Below are positions 654 to 28,366 of a stretch of DNA of 51,557 bases, piece after piece. The notes beneath the pieces were generated by a model. That model was given only the letters and a program-made list of their open reading frames with translations. It did not search any database and was not told the DNA's origin. The DNA is from a virus: the IMG/VR virus record IMGVR_UViG_3300008110_000439, positions 1 through 51,557 of that record; one strand, written 5' to 3'. A program made the translations under genes and the position numbers. How positions within the stretch are numbered: the first letter of the stretch is position 1; every line of letters begins with the position of its first letter.

Positions 654-1178
654 ATGACGAATACTGTACCTGCTAAGCAGGATGGGCAAGAGCTGCTTGA
701 CTTTACTGATGTACTACGTTACGAGCCTGATACGGGCAACTTCTTCTGGCTTGTGGACAGGCCACGTAGGACCAAGGCGGGGGACCAGGCAGGTTACTTA
801 AACAACAAAGGCTACGTAGAAATACGGTTTAATTATAAAACATATCAAGCACATAGAATTGCATGGTATTTACATACAGGCCAAGACCCTAAGGGATTCC
901 ATATTGACCATATAAACAATGACGGAGCAGATAACCGTTTCTGTAATTTACGACTAGCTACCCCGCAACAGAATGCTTGTAATACTAGAAAACGCGTCGG
1001 TACGGTTTCAGCGTACAAAGGTGTATCTTGGTATAGAGCAAAACAGAAATGGATAGCCCAGATAAGAGTAAATAATAAGGCTACGCATCTAGGTTACTAC
1101 GCTGATGAGTACGAAGCCCACGTAGCTTACTGCAGAGCGGCTCGTAAATACCACGGCGAATTTGCAAACTTTGGATAA
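654..1178 (+). CDS. HNH endonuclease with AP2 DNA-binding domain (homing-type)
   Basis: 174 residues. The central HNH_3-type core reads HRIAWYLHTGQ then IDHINNDGADNRFCNLR (about 67-101), with the His-Asn/His signature of phage-borne HNH nucleases. The C-terminal half (about 115-174) is an AP2 domain: YKGVSWYRAKQKWIAQI, then HLGYYADEYEAHVAY. Such HNH-AP2 proteins nick or cut a target site and spread with it, often as free-standing or intron-borne homing endonucleases. The middle of the gene (about 820-1090) is clearly richer in A and T than its neighbours, which suggests transfer. It is isolated: repeats upstream and its own terminator downstream. ATG 654 fits; no strong Shine-Dalgarno is seen. 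Confidence 0.9.
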   Translation: MTNTVPAKQDGQELLDFTDVLRYEPDTGNFFWLVDRPRRTKAGDQAGYLNNKGYVEIRFNYKTYQAHRIAWYLHTGQDPKGFHIDHINNDGADNRFCNLRLATPQQNACNTRKRVGTVSAYKGVSWYRAKQKWIAQIRVNNKATHLGYYADEYEAHVAYCRAARKYHGEFANFG

Positions 1179-2465: not shown

Positions 2466-3236
2466 TTAACGCTTTAGCGCCAGCGCCCAGCGGGGTGCGC
2501 GGGTGGTGCTGCCTAGGTCAGCTTGGGCGGCGTGGCTTAGGTGCTTCACCACGATGCCGTCGGTGGGCCAGGAGCGGAACGTACCACCGCTTAGCCAGGC
2601 CGTGTGGAGCTGCTCGACCTCGGCCTGCTTAGTGCAGAGGAGGGTGTCGGGCACCTGGAAGGAAAGGCGGCTGAGTAGGTCGATGGTGGAGGTCTCGTCG
2701 GAGCGGGGGGTGTGGCTAAGGGGCGCGGTGTAAGCGCTGAAGTGGAGGCCGGTGCCGCTGAGCTGCTTCTTCCTTAGGGCGGCGGCGGGGGTGGATTGTT
2801 TGTGGTCGTCGGACCAGAGCTCGCCGGTCACGTCGAAGACGCCGCTGAGTGCTGTGGCGACACCGCTGAGGCGCTTGGGGATGTCGCTGATGAGGAGAGC
2901 CAGGGCCAGAGCACACTTACCGCTGCGGGTCCAGGCGGCTGTGAGGATGCCGTCTTCGTAGCGGAGGGCAAGGGCGATGCCATCGATCTTGGGCTGGACT
3001 ACGACGCCCACGGGCTTGGTGGCGTCCCACCAGTCACCTAGGTCGGAGCAGTCGAGACTTAGGAGGGCGGTGCCGCCGCCTGGTTGCTGGAGTTCGGGGG
3101 CGTGGGGGGCCACGCTGCGGAGCTGCGCGATGAGGGTGTCAAAGGCCTCGTCGCTCATCAGGGGCGTCCCAGCGCGGTAGGCAGCGTCGGCCTGGCGGAC
3201 TTGGTTGCGGAGCGATTCGACCGAAGCGGTAGGCAC
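2466..3236 (-). CDS. NAD+-type DNA ligase, adenylation domain only
   Basis: 256 residues, against about 670 for bacterial LigA. The N-terminus keeps the domain Ia signature (YRAGTPLMSDEAFDTL, 20-35). The nucleotidyltransferase motif PKIDG gives the adenylated lysine K83. Later motifs follow in order: YEDGILTAAWTR, VTGELW (about 133), TDGIVVK (about 226) and the closing PRWALALK. The protein stops at this last motif, so the OB, zinc, helix-hairpin-helix and BRCT parts are absent. By family it would seal nicks with NAD+, but the short form may act only with a partner or only self-adenylate. A promoter-like sequence lies just upstream (3290-3319). Confidence 0.85.
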   Translation of the reverse strand: MPTASVESLRNQVRQADAAYRAGTPLMSDEAFDTLIAQLRSVAPHAPELQQPGGGTALLSLDCSDLGDWWDATKPVGVVVQPKIDGIALALRYEDGILTAAWTRSGKCALALALLISDIPKRLSGVATALSGVFDVTGELWSDDHKQSTPAAALRKKQLSGTGLHFSAYTAPLSHTPRSDETSTIDLLSRLSFQVPDTLLCTKQAEVEQLHTAWLSGGTFRSWPTDGIVVKHLSHAAQADLGSTTRAPRWALALKR

Positions 3237-4975: not shown

Positions 4976-5179
4976 TTATGTGAAACGGCTTGCCCACTCG
5001 CCACAGCCTTGAGAGCCGTGAACGACAGGCCAGAGGGTTCTGTAATTGGTGCCCTCTGGGAATGGGCCGCAAGTGGGAGCGTGGCGATGACACTCCCCCA
5101 AGGTGAAGGGAGGATCAAGGGATTGGTCCTCGAAGTGCCAGCCCCAGCGGCAAGTGCCGCAGATCTGGTGCTCCTTCAT
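4976..5179 (-). CDS. small cysteine-rich protein, 67 aa
   Basis: Pattern: CGTCRW near the start (C7, C10), then GECHRHAPTC (C30, C37), and CGEW at the end (C59). This layout (CxxCRW, a central CRxxP, and a terminal CGEW) matches a widespread family of small phage and bacterial proteins likely to bind Zn or an Fe-S cluster. It starts just past the stop of the SSB gene (ATG at 5179, SSB ends at 5181), so the two are probably translationally coupled. Function unknown. Confidence 0.75.
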   Translation of the reverse strand: MKEHQICGTCRWGWHFEDQSLDPPFTLGECHRHAPTCGPFPEGTNYRTLWPVVHGSQGCGEWASRFT

Positions 5180-5180
5180 G

Positions 5181-5765
5181 TCAAGCCTTGTCTTCCTTGA
5201 AGGGATTACCGCCTACGAGGAGGCGCTCCAGGGCAAAGCCGGCAGCCTTGGCCTCTTCCCACTTAGCAGCAATGTTGGCGTCGGCGCCTTTCTTGCGGGG
5301 GACGGGGAGCAGCTTGTACTCGGTGTTGAGGCCGCTGCCTTCCTTACCCAGCGTGAAGTCCGTTGCGGTGAGGTCTTCGTAATCCTCGGTCTGGCTGATC
5401 GAGTCAAGTTCGCGGATGATCGACTTCTGGGTCAGGTTGAACACCTGGACCTCGTCCGCCTCGTAGTTGTAGACGGGCAGGGCGATGGCGAACTTAATGG
5501 CTTCAGGGCCGGTGCCTTCGCGGTTCTGGCGGCGGGTGAAGTCGCCGAGCTCGAGGGCGATGTCGTCGGGGGTGGGCTCTTGGGCGAAGCGGAAGGGCTT
5601 GGCCTTGCCGTCCGGGCCCTCAGCCCAGAGTTCGTAGTACTCGACCGGCTCGTCGCTCAGCAGGGCGAAACGGACGGAGGAGCCAGCAGCGATTTTGCTG
5701 GGGTTCAGGTAACCACCGCCTGCGCCGGCAACAGCGGCTTGGGCGTTCTTAGAGAGGAGAGCCAT
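5181..5765 (-). CDS. probable single-stranded DNA-binding protein
   Basis: 194 residues. Several features fit phage SSBs of the gp32/gp2.5 kind: a basic and aromatic core (VRFALLSDEPVEYYELWAEG), a beta-strand run (VQVFNLTQKSIIRELDS), and the segment DFTLGKEGSGLNTEYKLLPV, which matches the DxxxxxxGxGxxTxYxV motif often seen in phage SSBs. A charged, partly acidic C-terminus (VGGNPFKEDKA) is as expected for partner contacts. It lies beside the octamer cluster and upstream of the nuclease gene. Assignment rests on motif and context, not on alignment. Confidence 0.65.
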   Translation of the reverse strand: MALLSKNAQAAVAGAGGGYLNPSKIAAGSSVRFALLSDEPVEYYELWAEGPDGKAKPFRFAQEPTPDDIALELGDFTRRQNREGTGPEAIKFAIALPVYNYEADEVQVFNLTQKSIIRELDSISQTEDYEDLTATDFTLGKEGSGLNTEYKLLPVPRKKGADANIAAKWEEAKAAGFALERLLVGGNPFKEDKA

Positions 5766-5953
5766 GAGTGGGTTGTGGGGTTGTGCAGCAGGCAGTGCCG
5801 TGAGGCGGTGCCGAGTGCTTGAGAAGCTTAGGCGGGTGAGCGGGAAGCGGCAAGACGTAAGCCGTGGAGGAGGAACGGCTGAGGCGCTGCTGAGGCGCTG
5901 CGGTACTGGTGTACCACTGCTGAGCGGCGCTGCTTAGCAGCTCAGAAGCGTGA

Positions 5954-6234
5954 ACCCGTGAGTAACCCGTGAGTAGTGAATTCACGGGTCTGGCGAGGAC
6001 AAGAACCTAGTCATAGGAAGGGATTAGAGAGAAAAAGAGAGTAAACCCGTGAACCCGTGAACTGTTTTTCACCAGCTCTGCTGTCAGTCTCATCAATCTC
6101 ACCCCCGCTCCCCCGATTTTTTCCTTCCTAGGCGCTCACGGGTCACGGGTTCACGGGTTGCACCAGACCCATTCCGGCGCAATCGTTTTGCCCACTCACG
6201 GGTTGGATTCAGACCCGTGACTTTTTACACGGGT
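5954..6234. repeat. octamer (iteron-like) cluster: candidate origin or operator array
   Basis: The octamer ACCCGTGA occurs ten times exactly in 267 bp: direct at 5954, 5965, 6045, 6053 and 6213; inverted (TCACGGGT) at 5982, 6136, 6143, 6151 and 6196. A near copy lies at 6227. The copies form paired groups, some separated by one to three bases. An AT-richer, purine-rich stretch (6004-6066) and a T-rich run (6116-6122) lie between groups. The whole 5766-6413 interval has no convincing gene. It is bounded by the SSB and primase-helicase genes, so a replication origin or a repressor/initiator binding array is likely. Confidence 0.8.
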
Positions 6235-6258
6235 TGACAAGGCCAAAAGTTGCCCCTA

Positions 6259-6381
6259 AGCTGCGTCAAGCAGCTCGACACGAAGCCGAGGCGAGCCGCC
6301 AAGAAACGGTGTCTTGAGTGAGTCTCATGAGACAGCGCATTTTTAAGGCCTGCTAAGCTGCGTAAAGCAGCTCAACAGGCC
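6259..6381. repeat. two related hairpins next to the octamer cluster
   Basis: Hairpin 1: AGCTGC (6259-6264), loop GTCAA, GCAGCT (6270-6275). Hairpin 2: AGCTGC (6356-6361), loop GTAAA, GCAGCT (6367-6372), extended by an outer stem GGCCTG (6347-6352) with CAGGCC (6376-6381). The core CTAAGCTGCGT(C/A)AAGCAGCTC is repeated about 97 bp apart. Between them is the 12-bp palindrome GTCTCATGAGAC (6322-6333). There is no T run on either side, so they are not typical terminators. Confidence 0.75.
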
Positions 6382-6413
6382 CGGCAAGCGCTACAGCTCA
6401 GCGACTTAGCCGC

Positions 6414-9056
6414 CTACTCAAGCTGCCAGCGCACTTGGTCGCGACGGACAGCGCGAACTAGACGACCAACGCCGTAGTCGTTGACCAGGCGTTCGAGCAT
6501 CTGCCTGGCCTCGCCTCCGCTGTTGGCCCACTTCTTCAGCACGAGGTCGCGATGGGTGACGGTGCCGGTCCCGTTGTCCTCGGCTAGGCGGACGATCTTG
6601 ACGACCCAATGGGGGAGATCGCCGCCACCCACCTGAGGAGCTAGCACGTCGAACTGGCAGATGAAGAAGCGGCAGAGCACCACGGCCCGTTCCATTACGT
6701 CCTTGGTGATCAACTCGCCCATGGCGTGCTCCGGGGCCTCTGCGGCGTAGTCAAGGGCGTGGAGCAGGCCAGCAGTACGCGCCAGGTAACCGCGCATCTT
6801 GCCGAGGAAGGCGGAGCGGCTGGCATAGGTGAGGTCGGCCTCAACGCTCCACTCGTCGCAGACCTGAGCAAAGAGCTCCCATGCCTCAGGATCCAGCCTC
6901 ACCACCTTGTGACGCCCAATAGAGGTGTCGAGCTCGTGAATTAGCTCGTGCAGCTCCTTCGTGATCTCAGCCTCGTTGAGGTTCTGCTTAGGAAAGACGT
7001 ATTCGGGGACGATCCAGAGGAAACGGGCCCAGAAGCCATCACCTGATTTGGCTGTGGCGTCATCACCGTGGAGCAGATCGGTGAGCTTGTCCTGCTGGAT
7101 GGCACCGAAGACGTTTACGGCAGTGCGGTCCACCATGATCGGGTCGCAGCCCTTGCGGACGATGTTGATCGAGCCGCCACTCCACATGCTGAGCCAGTGG
7201 GCCCGGTCACTATTGTTGCTGCGGTACTTGTCCATGTCACCGATGAACGCCGCAAGCTCGTCGTGGAAGCTGACGACGCCATGAACGTCCTCGCGCTCGA
7301 GAAGGGTGCAGAGGCCCTCAAGGGTGGCGTCTATCACGACACGTTGTCTAGGTAGGGCTGGGGGTTCTTCCCGGTCCTCCCTAGGCAGTGCTTTGTAGCG
7401 CATAAGGTCGCGCTTGTAAGCGCGTTGGTCTTGCCCGTCGAGAGTAAACAGGGGACCAAGAAACTGGTTGGCCACAGGTGTCTTTAGGGATGAGGCGGGA
7501 GCTACGGTGCCCATCCAAAAGACCAGTGGTTCGCGCCACCCCTCTTTGATCTGAACGCGAAAGCGCTTGCCCATCACTGCGCACATGGTGGTGATGAACG
7601 GTGCAATTAGCGCAGTATGGGCTACGGGGAAAGCATCAGCTCGGCCGCCTAAGAGGTCTGCGATACGTGGGTGGAATACAGATTGCAATTTGAGTTGAGT
7701 TGCGGCCGACTTAGACCACTGCTTAAAGCTGGTCTGGCGCAATTCTCTCAGTAGTTCGTCATCTTCGCTATTGCGCTGCTCCTTACGGATTTCGCGCAGA
7801 ACTGGCCATGGACGAGGCCAGCCGTTGTACTCAGCTGTATCGAAAACGTGGTAGATGCGCTTGTACGGAACACCTTGACGCTCATCGCTGCTTCGGCGGA
7901 TGGCCTCAGCTTGTTGTTCGAGGTTCCAGTGCTCGGTGGACCAGTTCGCGTTTACAGCAATGCTTATGGCTTGGTCTGCACCAAATTCATTAACTAGCGC
8001 TGCATAGATGCTGAAGGCGGCGCCATAGGTGTTGGTGCCTGGCTCAAGACGCTGAGGGCAGTAGGTAAGAGCAGTTATACAGAGCCGCACCTTTTCTTCG
8101 TGCGTGAGGCTGCTGTAGTGGGGGCCATTGGGCTTGTACTCGCTGTCGTAGGCCTCTTGGCTTTTGACGAAGGCGGCATAGGCCTTGGCATCAATGTCTC
8201 GATCAGGGAACTCAACAGCTTGCTGAGGAGCTGCAGTCTTAGGGAGTGCTTTGCCGAGCTGCTGACGAGCTGCGTTGCTAAGGAGGCCGCGCTTGCCTTC
8301 AGCAGTACGCAGGCTCAAGCCGGCTGCATCGCCGAGATGCTGCTCAGGGGGATCCGTCAGTGCAACCAGTTGACTTAGAGGGAAGCGCTCGCCGGTGGCA
8401 CTGATCACGCGGCTTAATTCGCCGGTTTCGGGATGCTTACCACCGGCCAGGCGCATGACACGAGCAGGATTGCAGAGTTTGGTGTCAATCTCTACGCCGG
8501 TAACGGTGCGCTTGACGTGGGCGAAGAGGCGCTTTTGAGCTTGGCGGAACTCGACGCCACTGCAGGGCTGGTCAAGGATCCAATAGTTGTGGACGGACTT
8601 TCCGCCTGTCCACATCTGCAGAGAGGGGTGGGGGAGACCAGCCTCTACCCATTGCTGCTTCTTTTCGTCGAGGTTGCTGAGGGGATTGTCGTCCTCGTAG
8701 AAAAGGGCGCGGCAGTAGGTGATCTCACTGTTCTTAGTTCCGCCCCAGTTTGGGATGTAGCCAAAGCCGTAGCCAGGACGTGCGGCAAGTTCCCGCTCGA
8801 TCCGTGCTTTGTCGAGGACCCCTTCAACGTCGATGTGGTGGCAGGGCAAGTCCTCTCCCTTTTTCTTTGGGGGGAAGAGGGCGATGAAGTAGCCCTCTTC
8901 GGCTGTGATGCCCAAGTGACTTAGCTGCTCTTCGACTTGGGTCCAATCCACCATGACCGGCTCGTGGGGTCCAAACACCATAACGGGAGTTGCCACGACT
9001 CGCAATGGGCTGTAGGATCGGTCCGTTCCGCTGGATTTGCCGGTGTCATCCGCCAA
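6414..9056 (-). CDS. primase with DUF3987-type helicase domain
   Basis: 880 residues. The N-terminal third looks like a RepB/AEP-type primase: YCRALFYEDDNPLSNLD (acidic metal-binding site, about 112-128), MWTGGKSVHNYWIL (His motif), and NPARVMRLAGGKH. The C-terminal half matches DUF3987 helicase-like proteins: a divergent Walker A (VAPASSLKTPVANQF), a Walker B-like FHDELAAFIGDMDKY and the NVFGAIQQDKLTDL motif. It would prime and unwind DNA for the phage polymerase. The start is TTG 9056; an internal ATG at 8981 is an alternative. The 5' end overlaps the divergent RHH gene. The gene ends next to the candidate origin. Confidence 0.85.
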   Translation of the reverse strand: MADDTGKSSGTDRSYSPLRVVATPVMVFGPHEPVMVDWTQVEEQLSHLGITAEEGYFIALFPPKKKGEDLPCHHIDVEGVLDKARIERELAARPGYGFGYIPNWGGTKNSEITYCRALFYEDDNPLSNLDEKKQQWVEAGLPHPSLQMWTGGKSVHNYWILDQPCSGVEFRQAQKRLFAHVKRTVTGVEIDTKLCNPARVMRLAGGKHPETGELSRVISATGERFPLSQLVALTDPPEQHLGDAAGLSLRTAEGKRGLLSNAARQQLGKALPKTAAPQQAVEFPDRDIDAKAYAAFVKSQEAYDSEYKPNGPHYSSLTHEEKVRLCITALTYCPQRLEPGTNTYGAAFSIYAALVNEFGADQAISIAVNANWSTEHWNLEQQAEAIRRSSDERQGVPYKRIYHVFDTAEYNGWPRPWPVLREIRKEQRNSEDDELLRELRQTSFKQWSKSAATQLKLQSVFHPRIADLLGGRADAFPVAHTALIAPFITTMCAVMGKRFRVQIKEGWREPLVFWMGTVAPASSLKTPVANQFLGPLFTLDGQDQRAYKRDLMRYKALPREDREEPPALPRQRVVIDATLEGLCTLLEREDVHGVVSFHDELAAFIGDMDKYRSNNSDRAHWLSMWSGGSINIVRKGCDPIMVDRTAVNVFGAIQQDKLTDLLHGDDATAKSGDGFWARFLWIVPEYVFPKQNLNEAEITKELHELIHELDTSIGRHKVVRLDPEAWELFAQVCDEWSVEADLTYASRSAFLGKMRGYLARTAGLLHALDYAAEAPEHAMGELITKDVMERAVVLCRFFICQFDVLAPQVGGGDLPHWVVKIVRLAEDNGTGTVTHRDLVLKKWANSGGEARQMLERLVNDYGVGRLVRAVRRDQVRWQLE

Positions 9057-9846
9057 GAGAGCCAGGATCCAGGCTTACCTGGAGCCAGAGCTAGCTGAAA
9101 TCATTCGTAAGCGTGCTGAGGAGGAGGATCGCCCCGAAAGCCGCGAGGTCACCAGGCTGGTACGCCTTGGTCTCGAGGCCGACGCTAAGAATTACGTCTT
9201 AGGCGGCAAGGCGTTTCGCACCAAGGCGGACATCCAGGCGCATGTACGGGCAGTGCGTGACGCAGCCGAGCTTGGTGAACGTATTACTGATCTTGTGGTG
9301 CTCGAGCTACTGGCACTCCACCCTGAGTGGGAGGAGAAGACAGCGGGCGGCGGATGGGTTGGCGCAGCGTTAATTAGTCATCCCGCCAAGAGGAAAGCCA
9401 CTAAGGAGATTGCGATCCTGTTTACAGGGGAGCAACGGGTGGTGGACATCAGCTGGACTAAGTTGCTGCCGTTTCTGCAGAAGGGCGTTAATGCCCCTAT
9501 TGCCGTGTGGGATTCACGTTTAAGTGAATTGCGCTTGGCTGCTAGGCAGGAAGTTGAGGCGCAGATACAGCCTCTGCGCAAGCCGGGGTGCGCTGTCGAT
9601 CACGTGTATCCACTCACCTTCGAGCAGTTGCTATACGACTGGCTCAGTGGAGAGGCCTTGAGGGTGGATGATGTGCCGCTGCGTGATGGTGTTGGTCAGG
9701 ACACCAGCCGCCATTTCTTAAAGCCCGAACAAGCTGAGTCTTGGCGGGATTACCACAGGCTCCATGCGCTACTCGACGTTATTTCTTACGAAGAGCACGC
9801 AAAGCGCACGGGCCGCGCTCACATCGATTGGACACCTTTTCTTTAA
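9043..9846 (+). CDS. RHH-like protein fused to DCL/DUF3223-type domain
   Basis: GTG at 9043 is preferred: GGA lies 7 bp upstream, while a TTG at 9037 is too close to it. Residues 5-50 (ARIQAYLEPELAEIIRKRAE, then TRLVRLGLEA) resemble a ribbon-helix-helix. The next region (about 55-165) has KAFRTKADIQAHVRAVRD and then GGGWVGAALISHPA. The C-terminal part (about 185-265) has AVDHVYPLTFEQLLYDWL and SWRDYHRLHALLDVIS, the pattern of DUF3223, which looks like a degraded HNH fold. It is the first gene of the rightward operon, directly before polA. Its role may be DNA binding or regulation; not certain. Confidence 0.7.
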   Translation: MSSAKRARIQAYLEPELAEIIRKRAEEEDRPESREVTRLVRLGLEADAKNYVLGGKAFRTKADIQAHVRAVRDAAELGERITDLVVLELLALHPEWEEKTAGGGWVGAALISHPAKRKATKEIAILFTGEQRVVDISWTKLLPFLQKGVNAPIAVWDSRLSELRLAARQEVEAQIQPLRKPGCAVDHVYPLTFEQLLYDWLSGEALRVDDVPLRDGVGQDTSRHFLKPEQAESWRDYHRLHALLDVISYEEHAKRTGRAHIDWTPFL

Positions 9847-9851
9847 AACTC

Positions 9852-11702
9852 ATGGACGTACTTTTTGGTATTGAGCACATTAACTGTTTGGATAGAGCAG
9901 AGGTAGTTGCATTCGACGTTGAGACCACTGGTCTAGTTCCCGTGGTAGGGGGTCTAAGGCTTTTGCAACTCACTGCTGCCGACAAGCCGGTGGTGGTTTT
10001 GGATATGTGGGAGTTAGTTAAAGAAGAGTGGGAGAGCCTGCGTAAGTGGTGCTTAGAGCGGGAGCGTGTGTGGGTTGCGCACAACGCGGTGTTCGACTTG
10101 GGGTGGTTACAGGAGCACCGCATCGAGCTGAATGGTGCTGTTCATTGCACCATGCTTGCTTCGCGGCTTACCTCTAATGGGACCCCAAACCTGCGTCACG
10201 GTCTAGCTCCAGTGCTGGAACGCCACATGGGTTTGACTATTAGTAAGGAAGAGCAACGATCAGACTGGAGCGCACCGTTGCTTAGCGAGTCGCAGCTTAC
10301 CTATGCAGCACGCGATGTTTATGAGCTAATTAGGCTGTACCCGCTGCTTATGAAGAAGCTTGAGAAGGGGAAGTTGTTGCGCGCTTTTGATATGGAGTGT
10401 GCCGCGCTGCCCGTACTCGCTCATATGCAGAGGAGCGGGCTGCCGTTTAGTAGGCAAAAGCTTGAAGAGCTTCAGGCTTATTACGAGGAGCGGATTGAGA
10501 CGCTGGGCAAAGACTTTGTTGAGCAGCTTGATTCCGCTCTGCCTGAAGAAGGGAAGTTGCCACGCGATCCTGATGGTACCTTTAACTTAAGGGCTAAGGC
10601 GGAAGGTAGTATTCGGGCTGGCACTAAAGTTGCAGCGGGGTTTAACCTCAACTCGCCTAAGCAGTTGGTTGATAAGTTTACGCTTTTATTAGGTGAGGCG
10701 CCATTAGATGAGAAGACGGGCAAGAAGAGTGTTTCTGTTAGTGCTCTTAGGGCTTACGCAGCCGATCATGTCGTTGTGCAGACGTACCTGGGCTGGAAGA
10801 AAGCAGAAAAGCGGAGGCAGATGGTAGTAGCACTTATGGAGCATCAACATGCAGATGGTTTTATTCGTGCTAGCTACATGCAGTTGGGTGCTGATACTGG
10901 CAGGATGTCTTGCCGTAACCCGAACCTTCAGCAAGTACCGAGAGACAAAGGTTTTAGGGCTGCAGCTGAGGCGCCCGAGGGATGGTCTTTTGTTGTCGCT
11001 GACTTTGGTCAGATGGAGTTACGTCTGGCCGCTGCGGTATCTATGGATAAGCGGATGATCGCGGCATTTAAGGACGGGGAGGATCTCCACACAATTACAG
11101 CTGCGGCTATTTATCCAGAAGCCACAGAAGATCCCGCTGAGATGAAGTTGCGCAGACAGGTTGCTAAGTCGGCAAACTTTGGTTTGTTGTACGGCTCAGG
11201 TGCAAAAGGCTTGCGTGCTTACGCGGGTGCTATGGGTATAACAATGACTTTGGATGAAGCGGATGCAATTCGCAGCACATTCCGCAATACTTACTGTGGG
11301 ATTGCTGATTGGCAGAGCCTAAATGCGGACGAGGCAAATCGCACCTACGGTGATAAATGGGCTGAGGTAAGGGTTCCTGGTAGTGAGCTTCGGCGGTATT
11401 TGCCAGGAGAGCTCAACCGCCTGACCACGCGGTGTAACACACCGATTCAAGGGGCTGGTGCTGCTGTGCTGAAAGTTGCCCTGGCTGAGTTGTGGCCCCA
11501 CTTGCGTCAAGCGGGTGAAGACACAGTGCAATTAGCAGCTGTAATCCATGATGAGGTGGTCCTATTAGTACGCGAGGGGCTGGAAGAACAATGGGCCAAG
11601 CTACTTAGTGGTGTGATGGAGAAGGCCGAAGCCAAATGGCTGGGCGATATTCCGCCCTTAGCTGAGGCGGCTTGGGGTAAGACGTGGGCCGACGCTAAGT
11701 AG
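9852..11702 (+). CDS. polA: family A DNA polymerase with 3'-5' exonuclease
   Basis: 616 residues from ATG 9852, 3 bp after the stop of the upstream gene. A longer in-frame start at 9741 would overlap that gene, so I reject it. Exonuclease motifs: FDVETTGL (D22, E24), WVAHNAVFDLGWL and YAARDVYEL. Polymerase motifs: A, VVADFGQMELRLAA (a variant of DYSQIELR); B (O helix), RRQVAKSANFGLLYG; C, AVIHDEVVLLV. There is no 5'-3' exonuclease domain. The nucleotide-selecting residue in motif B is Phe (ANFG). It would replicate the phage genome with the divergent primase-helicase. Confidence 0.95.
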   Translation: MDVLFGIEHINCLDRAEVVAFDVETTGLVPVVGGLRLLQLTAADKPVVVLDMWELVKEEWESLRKWCLERERVWVAHNAVFDLGWLQEHRIELNGAVHCTMLASRLTSNGTPNLRHGLAPVLERHMGLTISKEEQRSDWSAPLLSESQLTYAARDVYELIRLYPLLMKKLEKGKLLRAFDMECAALPVLAHMQRSGLPFSRQKLEELQAYYEERIETLGKDFVEQLDSALPEEGKLPRDPDGTFNLRAKAEGSIRAGTKVAAGFNLNSPKQLVDKFTLLLGEAPLDEKTGKKSVSVSALRAYAADHVVVQTYLGWKKAEKRRQMVVALMEHQHADGFIRASYMQLGADTGRMSCRNPNLQQVPRDKGFRAAAEAPEGWSFVVADFGQMELRLAAAVSMDKRMIAAFKDGEDLHTITAAAIYPEATEDPAEMKLRRQVAKSANFGLLYGSGAKGLRAYAGAMGITMTLDEADAIRSTFRNTYCGIADWQSLNADEANRTYGDKWAEVRVPGSELRRYLPGELNRLTTRCNTPIQGAGAAVLKVALAELWPHLRQAGEDTVQLAAVIHDEVVLLVREGLEEQWAKLLSGVMEKAEAKWLGDIPPLAEAAWGKTWADAK

Positions 11703-27038: not shown

Positions 27039-28366
27039 CAGAATGTGCCTCCGTCAATCGTTGCGTTGGGACTTAGGTAATCGGTGCCATCAACCGCTGC
27101 GGTGAAAGCGGAGGTGCCGTTGCCCTTGAGGATGCCGGTCAAAGTGGTGGCGCCGGTGCCCCCGTAGGCGACGGTCAGAGTGCTGCCGTTCCAGGTACCA
27201 GTTGTAATAGTGCCCAGCGTGGTAATGCTGGTTTGACCGACGTAGGTAGGGGCAATGTCAACGCCAGAACCGCTGACGCTGATCCGGTTACTTGTACCGC
27301 TGACCGAGAAGGTGTTGCCGGTCAGGCCCAGGCCGTTACCAGCCAGGTAAGTGCCAGCCCCCGAGAATTGCGCAAAGGCGACCGAGGTGCTGCCCAAGGT
27401 GCCGCCGGGGTCAGCGGTACAAACCCAGCCAGTGTCGCCGTTGACAGTGCCTTGCTCGACAAAGGTGAAGGCCGAGATGAACTCAGCCCAGGCATCCATG
27501 TCGGTGGATCGGGTCCAGGCGCCAGCCGCAACGATGTAGATGCCGTTCTGGCTGGCGGTGCTCTGGTTCTTGACCAGAACACGGTCGCCGGCAATCACGC
27601 TGATGCCGTCGATCGTCTGCGTGGCGGACAGGGTGATGCTTGCCGTGGTTGCCACCCTCACCGAGCTCTTCACGTCAAGGCCCTGGGCCACCGAGTCGAC
27701 GTACCCCTTGTTTGCCGCGTCGCTATCGGCCGTACAAAGCGCCAGGTTGGTGATTTTCTGGCTGTTGGCGGACACTGCGGCGGTGGGCGCCGCCATCTGA
27801 TCCAGACGGCTGGTGCGAACCTGGGTGTCGAAGTCGCTGATCTTGGCGGCGGTCAGCGTCGGGATGTCGGTCGCGCTGAGGGTGGTGCCGCTGGTGGCAC
27901 GCCCCTTAGCGTCGACGGTCACTTTGGTGTAAGTTCCGGCCGTGACACCACTGTTGGCCAGGGTCAACGTGACTGAGGTGCTGCCAGAGCCAGTCGCATC
28001 ACCCGTGAAGGTGATGTTCTGGTTGCCGGTGATGTACAACTGAGCCTTAACAAAGGCTGTGGTGGCGACCTTGGTGCTGTTGTCAGCAGTGAGCTGTGTT
28101 GAGGCAGTGGCGGTCGCGCCCGTGAGATCAACACTGCCCGTGAAGGTCTTATTACCGGAGACTGTCTGTGCGCTGCTTAGGGTTAAAAAGGCCCCTGAGC
28201 CGGCGATTGCTGGGGTAGTTGTCGCAGTGCCACCAGCACCGCCGGTGCCTTTGCCGTAGTAGAGGACATCATCGACCTCGTTGTAGGCGAGCTCGGCGTT
28301 GTCCAACGATGTGGGAGCACCGGGTGCGCCGCTGGTCCGTCGTTTAATGCGAAGTGTGTTGGCCAT
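27038..28366 (-). CDS. tail fibre protein, 442 aa
   Basis: N-terminus LRIKRRTSGAPGAPTSLDNA, then ELAYNEVDDVLYYGKG; a helical/coiled region (VSGNKTFTGSVDLTG); then DSDAANKGYVDSVAQGLDVK and a beta domain (NGIYIVAAGAWTRSTDMDAW). The last third repeats beta motifs and ends YLSPNATIDGGTF. Such proteins are side or tail fibres, with the N-terminus joining the tail and the C-terminus contacting the host. The gene ends in the xDGGxF motif whose codons supply the GGAGG of the next gene. Confidence 0.85.
   Translation of the reverse strand: MANTLRIKRRTSGAPGAPTSLDNAELAYNEVDDVLYYGKGTGGAGGTATTTPAIAGSGAFLTLSSAQTVSGNKTFTGSVDLTGATATASTQLTADNSTKVATTAFVKAQLYITGNQNITFTGDATGSGSTSVTLTLANSGVTAGTYTKVTVDAKGRATSGTTLSATDIPTLTAAKISDFDTQVRTSRLDQMAAPTAAVSANSQKITNLALCTADSDAANKGYVDSVAQGLDVKSSVRVATTASITLSATQTIDGISVIAGDRVLVKNQSTASQNGIYIVAAGAWTRSTDMDAWAEFISAFTFVEQGTVNGDTGWVCTADPGGTLGSTSVAFAQFSGAGTYLAGNGLGLTGNTFSVSGTSNRISVSGSGVDIAPTYVGQTSITTLGTITTGTWNGSTLTVAYGGTGATTLTGILKGNGTSAFTAAVDGTDYLSPNATIDGGTF

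Follow-up and report, generated by a model that had tools for sequence, protein, structure and literature searches.

The replication origin of a tailed phage probably lies in an array of short direct and inverted repeats of the octamer ACCCGTGA, situated directly behind the gene of a PrimPol-helicase in a 51,557-base stretch of viral DNA (the window, a whole virus record). The octamers would act as iterons bound by the PrimPol-helicase encoded beside them, in an organization like that of the PICI/SaPI origins. Since the layout of the array is kept in relatives while the repeated word follows the enzyme, genome copying most likely starts at the array.

The window carries the gene set of a tailed phage, i.e. 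terminase, portal, head, tail and endolysin genes, and on the strength of an S-2L-like AEP domain the virus appears to be of cyanobacterial type. Named phage genomes gave no DNA match to positions 5100-9100, and no isolate among them had a PrimPol closely related to that of the window; bacterial genomes gave two distant matches only. An earlier, sequence-only reading of this DNA had placed the array between divergent replication genes. This was wrong, as the SSB and primase-helicase genes are both on the - strand, so that the array directly follows the 3' end of the primase-helicase gene and lies on the 5' side of the SSB gene (Table 1). The actual divergent junction is at about 9040, between the primase-helicase and PolA genes. 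Homologs suggest that the PrimPol-helicase starts at the ATG at 8954 instead of the TTG. The same reading had put forward an RHH-DUF3223 protein as a possible binding partner, a suggestion for which no support was obtained, and none was obtained for another DNA-binding protein of the window: of the 20 window proteins scanned with Pfam, none matched RHH or DUF3223. Its proposal of an iteron-type origin with the primase-helicase as partner turned out to be the best-supported part, because the array is kept in the close relative L009 and follows the primase-helicase.

Table 1. Replication genes and array elements of the window, and repeat copies in related loci.
Feature	Position	Strand	Remarks
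SSB-like gene	5181..5765	-	downstream of array, same strand
Exact ACCCGTGA copies (starts)	5954+, 5965+, 5982-, 6045+, 6053+, 6136-, 6143-, 6151-, 6196-, 6213+		
Distal iteron group	5954..5989		5954-5961 (+), 5965-5972 (+), 5982-5989 (-)
Conserved non-iteron block, CCCTTxxTATGAC-like	6000..6027	-	separates distal from inner iterons; can be discerned in most of the eight loci (alignment)
Inner tandem octamer pair	6045..6060	+	8-bp spacing; left of core
Core, 75 bp	6061..6135		between opposed inner iteron groups; conserved in part in L009; possible site of melting
Inner group of three octamers (6136, 6143, 6151)	6136..6158	-	faces the 6045-6060 pair
Conserved non-iteron block, CAAAACGATTGCGCCGGAATGGGTCTGG on - strand	6163..6190	-	form common to the eight loci (alignments)
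Primase-proximal iteron group	6196..6234		6196-6203 (-), 6213-6220 (+), near copy 6227-6234 (-)
Near copy ACCCGTGT	6227..6234	-	eleventh copy beside the ten exact ACCCGTGA
Codons for C-terminal 78 aa of PrimPol-helicase	6414..6650	-	predicted winged helix, candidate octamer-binding domain
PrimPol-helicase gene	6414..9056	-	880 aa from TTG; N-terminal AEP primase-polymerase, DUF3987 helicase, C-terminal winged helix (predicted); proposed initiator
Family A DNA polymerase (PolA) gene	9741..11702	+	divergent from PrimPol-helicase gene; in replication module
Window sites, from primase stop codon	254+ 262+ / 353- 361- / 423+ 441- 452-		
L009 sites, from primase stop codon	459+ 467+ / 558- 566- / 628+ 646- 657-		
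L103 sites, from primase stop codon	94+ 102+ / 182- 190- / 242+ 258- 269-		
L011 sites, from primase stop codon	64+ 73+ / 182- / 234+ 251- 262-		
Words of L010, L011, L018, L103, L109, L110 (in this order)			AACYGCTGA, AACTGTTAG, AAAAGGTGA, AACTGTCGA (12 copies), AAAGTGCGG, AAAGCGCGG

Exact counting on both strands confirmed the ten copies of ACCCGTGA reported at 5954-6220, five per strand, together with the near copy. The size given for the interval, 648 bp (5766-6413), was right, and the chance estimate of 0.008 matches per 267 bp agrees with the expectation of about 0.007 derived from shuffles. In dinucleotide-preserving shuffles of the whole record the mean was 1.35 copies per 51.6 kb, and 11 were never reached. 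The octamer could have been common throughout the genome; outside the array the 51.6-kb record holds a single exact copy, at 28001. A 9-mer with a preceding A or G, AACCCGTGA, fits the repeat slightly better than the octamer does. The copies at 6136 and 6143 overlap by 1 base, and the 6136..6158 group forms with the pair at 6045-6060 a 22-nt inverted repeat that is 91% complementary. Seen from the primase side (- strand) the distal group reads as a '+ 18 - 11 -' triple, a geometry kept in L009, L011 and L103. A mechanically called 78-aa ORF (5749-5985, -) overlaps the SSB end of the interval and was treated as spurious because its stretch is only 45% identical in L009. A search of Rfam returned nothing near gathering scores and an RNA element was rejected. 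The single terminator-like hit, on the + strand, is the inverted octamer pair at 6196-6220 with the T-rich stretch behind it; chance alone would give 0.9 such hits.

The PrimPol-helicase of L009 is 79% identical to that of the window, and nine exact copies of ACCCGTGA are present in the same interval of this relative. When the two intervals were aligned, the octamer sites were better conserved than the DNA between them: 84 of the 87 octamer columns were identical (97%), compared with 139 of 199 (70%) for the other columns of the block and 83 of 183 and 106 of 179 (45-59%) for the two flanks. L009 also has a separate tandem GCTAAGCC array (GCTAAGC repeat) between the PrimPol stop and the octamers; this array sets the top 9-mer score of the interval, while ACCCGTGA ranks first in the locus when exact octamers are counted.

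Six further loci (L010, L011, L018, L103, L109 and L110) encode a PrimPol that is about 47-53% identical to the window protein and have a repeat array at the same place, made of another word (Table 1). All eight members of the family have the array immediately behind the 3' end of the PrimPol-helicase gene, and in seven of them the 9-mer repeat score at this place tops every other stretch of the locus, although in L009 the score is set by the GCTAAGC array. Copy order, strand and spacing are partly superimposable between the window and the six distant relatives, and both non-iteron blocks (6000-6027 and 6163-6190) can be traced through most of the eight sequences. The arrangement '++ (8 bp) ... 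-- (8 bp)' is common to the window, L009 and L103, and the triple '+ 16-18 - 11 -' to these three and L011; for random placements of ten sites the probabilities are 0.0017 and 0.0032 per locus, respectively, the geometry having been compared after the data were seen and the pattern taken from these same loci. The layouts of L109 and L110 are related, not identical, and L110 is without the opposed inner group. The array of L018 is weak, with just five clear copies, and that of L010 is weak and degenerate, no higher than control windows. Across the eight loci seven words occur on related layouts, which is concerted replacement. Scanning of viral contigs with DNA patterns retrieved seven contigs with AACCCGTGAACCCGTGA and five with AACTGTCGAACTGTCGAA. 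In each set a dense array was present in one contig, the sole encoder of the DUF3987-type PrimPol family; in the remaining contigs the tandem word formed a lone pair, accompanied by no more than one additional copy. By exact counts no array above chance was detected in S-2L, L020 and L014/L061, and L021 has a short suggestive array at which the contig ends. In L010, L011 and L103 a gene without a Pfam match (e.g. L011 10744-11454) sits between the array and the SSB gene. It was considered as binding partner and rejected, no homolog being detected in the window or L009.

A natural swap of the primase gene is provided by L012, in which SSB, exonuclease and PolA are 74%, 70% and 63% identical to those of the window, and by L024 (71%, 71% and 63%); the corresponding values for L009 are 71%, 70% and 71%. 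A tblastn search for a DUF3987-type PrimPol in L012 and L024 found none, and the PrimPol of these phages bears an AAA_25 domain. ACCCGTGA is absent from L012 and neither phage has an array of it. Instead, both have a ATGGGACA array that occupies the final few hundred bases of the AAA_25-type PrimPol gene. As phages with similar SSB, exonuclease and PolA and another primase family are without ACCCGTGA and possess a different array, the array follows the primase-helicase. This association rests on the swap comparison and not on tree-counted recombination events, because several replication genes are linked. Conservation of the copies in relatives with the flanking genes, as the sequence-only reading expected, therefore held in L009 but not where the SSB gene is kept and the primase-helicase gene is not. 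Their loss from the latter phages implies that the primase-helicase is the likely partner. In a set of 16 AAA_25-type loci, dereplicated at 80% protein identity, 11 had the highest octamer count of the locus in the last 400 bp of the PrimPol gene, where about 0.8 were expected. The words vary, among them GGTGGACA, TTGGGACA, CCGGGACA and ATGCGACA. The copies inside the ORF, followed in eight examples, use all three codon phases and both strands, and many form -/+ pairs with a distance of 43-45 bp, which indicates selection on the DNA and not on the peptide. Octamer arrays of this kind, spread over several phases and both strands, were seen in the last 100-400 bp of the AAA_25-type PrimPol ORF in L023-L102 (about 75 loci); their words differ by lineage and mostly share GACA.

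These phages bear on the explanation that the octamers are operators, bound by a repressor or by the PrimPol-helicase itself for control of the SSB-exonuclease operon or for autoregulation, with no origin function, which we regard as unlikely. The array is located upstream of the SSB gene on the coding strand, and upstream of PolA in the AAA_25 family; because it precedes the next replication gene in both branches, a regulatory role is conceivable. However, in the AAA_25-type phages, where the SSB and primase genes are arranged head-to-head, the array occupies the far (3') end of the primase gene, inside the ORF. This shows that the array tracks the 3' end of the primase gene and not the SSB promoter. 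In addition, no promoter-like site was found when 5700-6450 was searched with the sigma-70 consensus. It would also be unusual for operators to number five on each strand within 280 bp and to form opposed groups about a core.

Like the PrimQH/All3500-like proteins, the proposed initiator joins an AEP domain to a helicase domain and a C-terminal winged helix, the latter being predicted. Its N-terminus is matched by the solved AEP domain of the S-2L PrimPol (6zp9) with an E value of 5.8e-24 in a search with a profile of four relatives, and its DUF3987 domain by Pfam with an E value of 4.8e-48. In the PrimQH/All3500 families AEP is likewise combined with helicase domains, including DUF3987 and RepA-like ones; DUF3987 beside AEP domains is predicted to be a helicase, and the C-terminal winged helix of such proteins is predicted to recognise the origin, with no DNA site proposed (PMC5862659). 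The present arrays are candidates for such sites. The C-terminal 78 residues of the window protein were modelled as helix-strand-helix-helix-strand-strand (H-E-H-H-E-E) with a mean pLDDT of 82.2. A Foldseek search with this model pointed to a resemblance to winged-helix proteins such as MarR relatives, no match being individually significant (best E 0.049). The full-length AlphaFold model, built from four sequences, had a pLDDT of 41.6 and was not usable. In cyanophage S-2L (MW334946), which has the homologous AEP domain, TGTGCC-like repeats are visible by eye downstream of the PrimPol gene but do not exceed shuffles.

In the origin that we propose, the octamers would be iterons for the PrimPol-helicase that the phage itself encodes just upstream, on the same strand, and would most likely be recognised by the C-terminal winged helix of this protein. 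The opposed inner groups (6045-6060 and 6136-6158) around the core suggest that a pair of initiator oligomers could be loaded in opposite orientations, in line with a proposal made for SaPI Rep (PMC7581432), and replication may then be bidirectional. The core would be opened by the DUF3987 helicase domain and primed by the AEP domain, after which synthesis could be handed over to the PolA and SSB encoded next door. Some observations count against an origin: the core has an AT content of 47% compared with 44% for the record and so is barely AT-richer, the L010 and L018 arrays are weak, and L110 has no opposed inner group. Cumulative GC-skew, which had been suggested as a check, was positive over nearly the whole record with no switch at the array, and is uninformative for an origin.

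PICI/SaPI origins (PMC6092414, PMC7581432) likewise consist of short iterons directly 3' of the initiator gene (Rep or Pri-Rep), grouped on both sides of a core, with an initiator that has a helicase domain and with words that differ between elements. Putative iterons immediately 3' of the proposed initiator gene were found in the window and seven relatives. In SaPI Rep the iterons are recognised by the C-terminal domain, to which the predicted winged helix would correspond. In PICIs two iteron sets flank an AT-rich region, whereas here the opposed groups flank a core that is not clearly AT-rich and further groups lie outside them. Moreover, those elements are satellites, whereas the array described here belongs to a 51.6-kb tailed phage, has more than two groups and would be served by an AEP-DUF3987-winged-helix fusion. 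With its own terminase, portal, head and tail genes the phage would possess an origin that works like that of a PICI without being a PICI. 

P4 alpha combines primase, helicase and origin-binding domains in one protein and uses short repeats as its sites (ori/crr), and in these respects would resemble the present system. P4 needs two separated sites, whereas the window yielded a single array. PMC6092414 refers to P4 alpha and to its ori site.

It is also improbable, though to be weighed, that the octamers are template priming sites, read as single-stranded DNA by the AEP domain and not as double-stranded sites by the winged helix. NrS-1 PrimPol is a phage PrimPol with a helicase-type C-terminus and an 8-nt DNA word (PMC7102993, PMC8718748), and it reads TTTGGTTA or GTGA/GTGG as template (PMC8718748). 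ACCCGTGA ends in GTGA, and the AEP domain of the window protein is of the S-2L type. However, neither TTTGGTTA nor GTG/GTGA characterizes the family, as the words of L010, L011, L103 and L110 contain no GTG, and the fixed spacings and opposed groups suit double-stranded binding. The NrS-1 genome has just two copies of its site (PMC7102993), compared with the eleven clustered here, and its PrimPol has another helicase domain.

A stem-loop origin of the pRN1 type, in which a long stem-loop formed by the opposed inner groups and not the repeated word would be the functional element, is very unlikely. The pRN1 origin lies directly downstream of the gene for ORF904, also an AEP-helicase-winged-helix protein, and has a 21-nt stem and a 58-nt loop (PMC4234260). 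The arrays of the window, L009 and L103 do form a long stem, with folds that beat every shuffle (z -4.3, -5.2 and -7.5). Those of L011, L010 and L110 are not clearly better than shuffles (z 0.4, -0.8 and -1.3), yet the word is clear in L011 and L110. The pRN1 element is a stem-loop of poorly conserved sequence, whereas here the repeated word is constant and the stem is not conserved, which makes the latter look like a by-product of opposed repeats. Chance, or a mobile or structural repeat family without a replication role, is hardly credible and already largely refuted, since in spite of other short repeats in the record and its relatives (GCTTAGC/GCTAAGC and TAAGGCTCA, see below) the shuffles, the L009 footprint, the PrimPol-adjacent position in eight loci, the layout and the restriction of dense arrays to encoders of the DUF3987-type PrimPol family all speak against it.

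Iteron origins 3' of the initiator gene are known already from PICIs, and other forms from P4 and pRN1. New would be their occurrence in tailed phages, the PrimPol-DUF3987 initiator, the kept layout with replaced words and the version embedded in coding sequence in the sister system. Full-text searches of open-licence papers gave no description of iterons in cyanophages with PrimPol-type enzymes. Few origins are known for tailed phages with PrimPol-type replication, and origin recognition by the winged helix has so far merely been predicted. A candidate site can now be assigned to each enzyme, and the differing words of the related enzymes offer a direct test of how an initiator and all of its sites shift their specificity jointly. 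If the array is an origin, a layout described as exclusive to phage satellites extends to tailed phages, and a repeated word at the 3' end of a PrimPol gene becomes a simple origin finder. More tentatively, phage PrimPol-helicases as a class might each be served by a private origin located where their gene ends (3'), with a lineage-specific octamer that is exchanged in all copies at once, the spacing and the flanking blocks being kept. In the AAA_25 type this origin would lie inside the coding tail. Gene and origin might then move as one cassette, and the private word might prevent cross-use by related phages or satellites.

Other features of the window were noted in passing. Positions 1-400 contain a tandem array of alternating units with TAAGGCTCA in seven exact copies, which may be the genome end or an assembly edge. 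The words GCTTAGC/GCTAAGC are dispersed at 34 places in the window (e.g. 5932, 6352 and 16219), and also occur 34 times in L009 (18.6 kb) and 14 times in L012 (9.4 kb), in part in a hairpin-like form, CTAAGCTGCGTxAAGCAGCTC. At 2466-3236 (-) a 256-aa protein is encoded with an NAD-dependent DNA ligase adenylation domain only, and at 654-1178 (+) an HNH endonuclease that also has an AP2 domain and is probably of the homing type.
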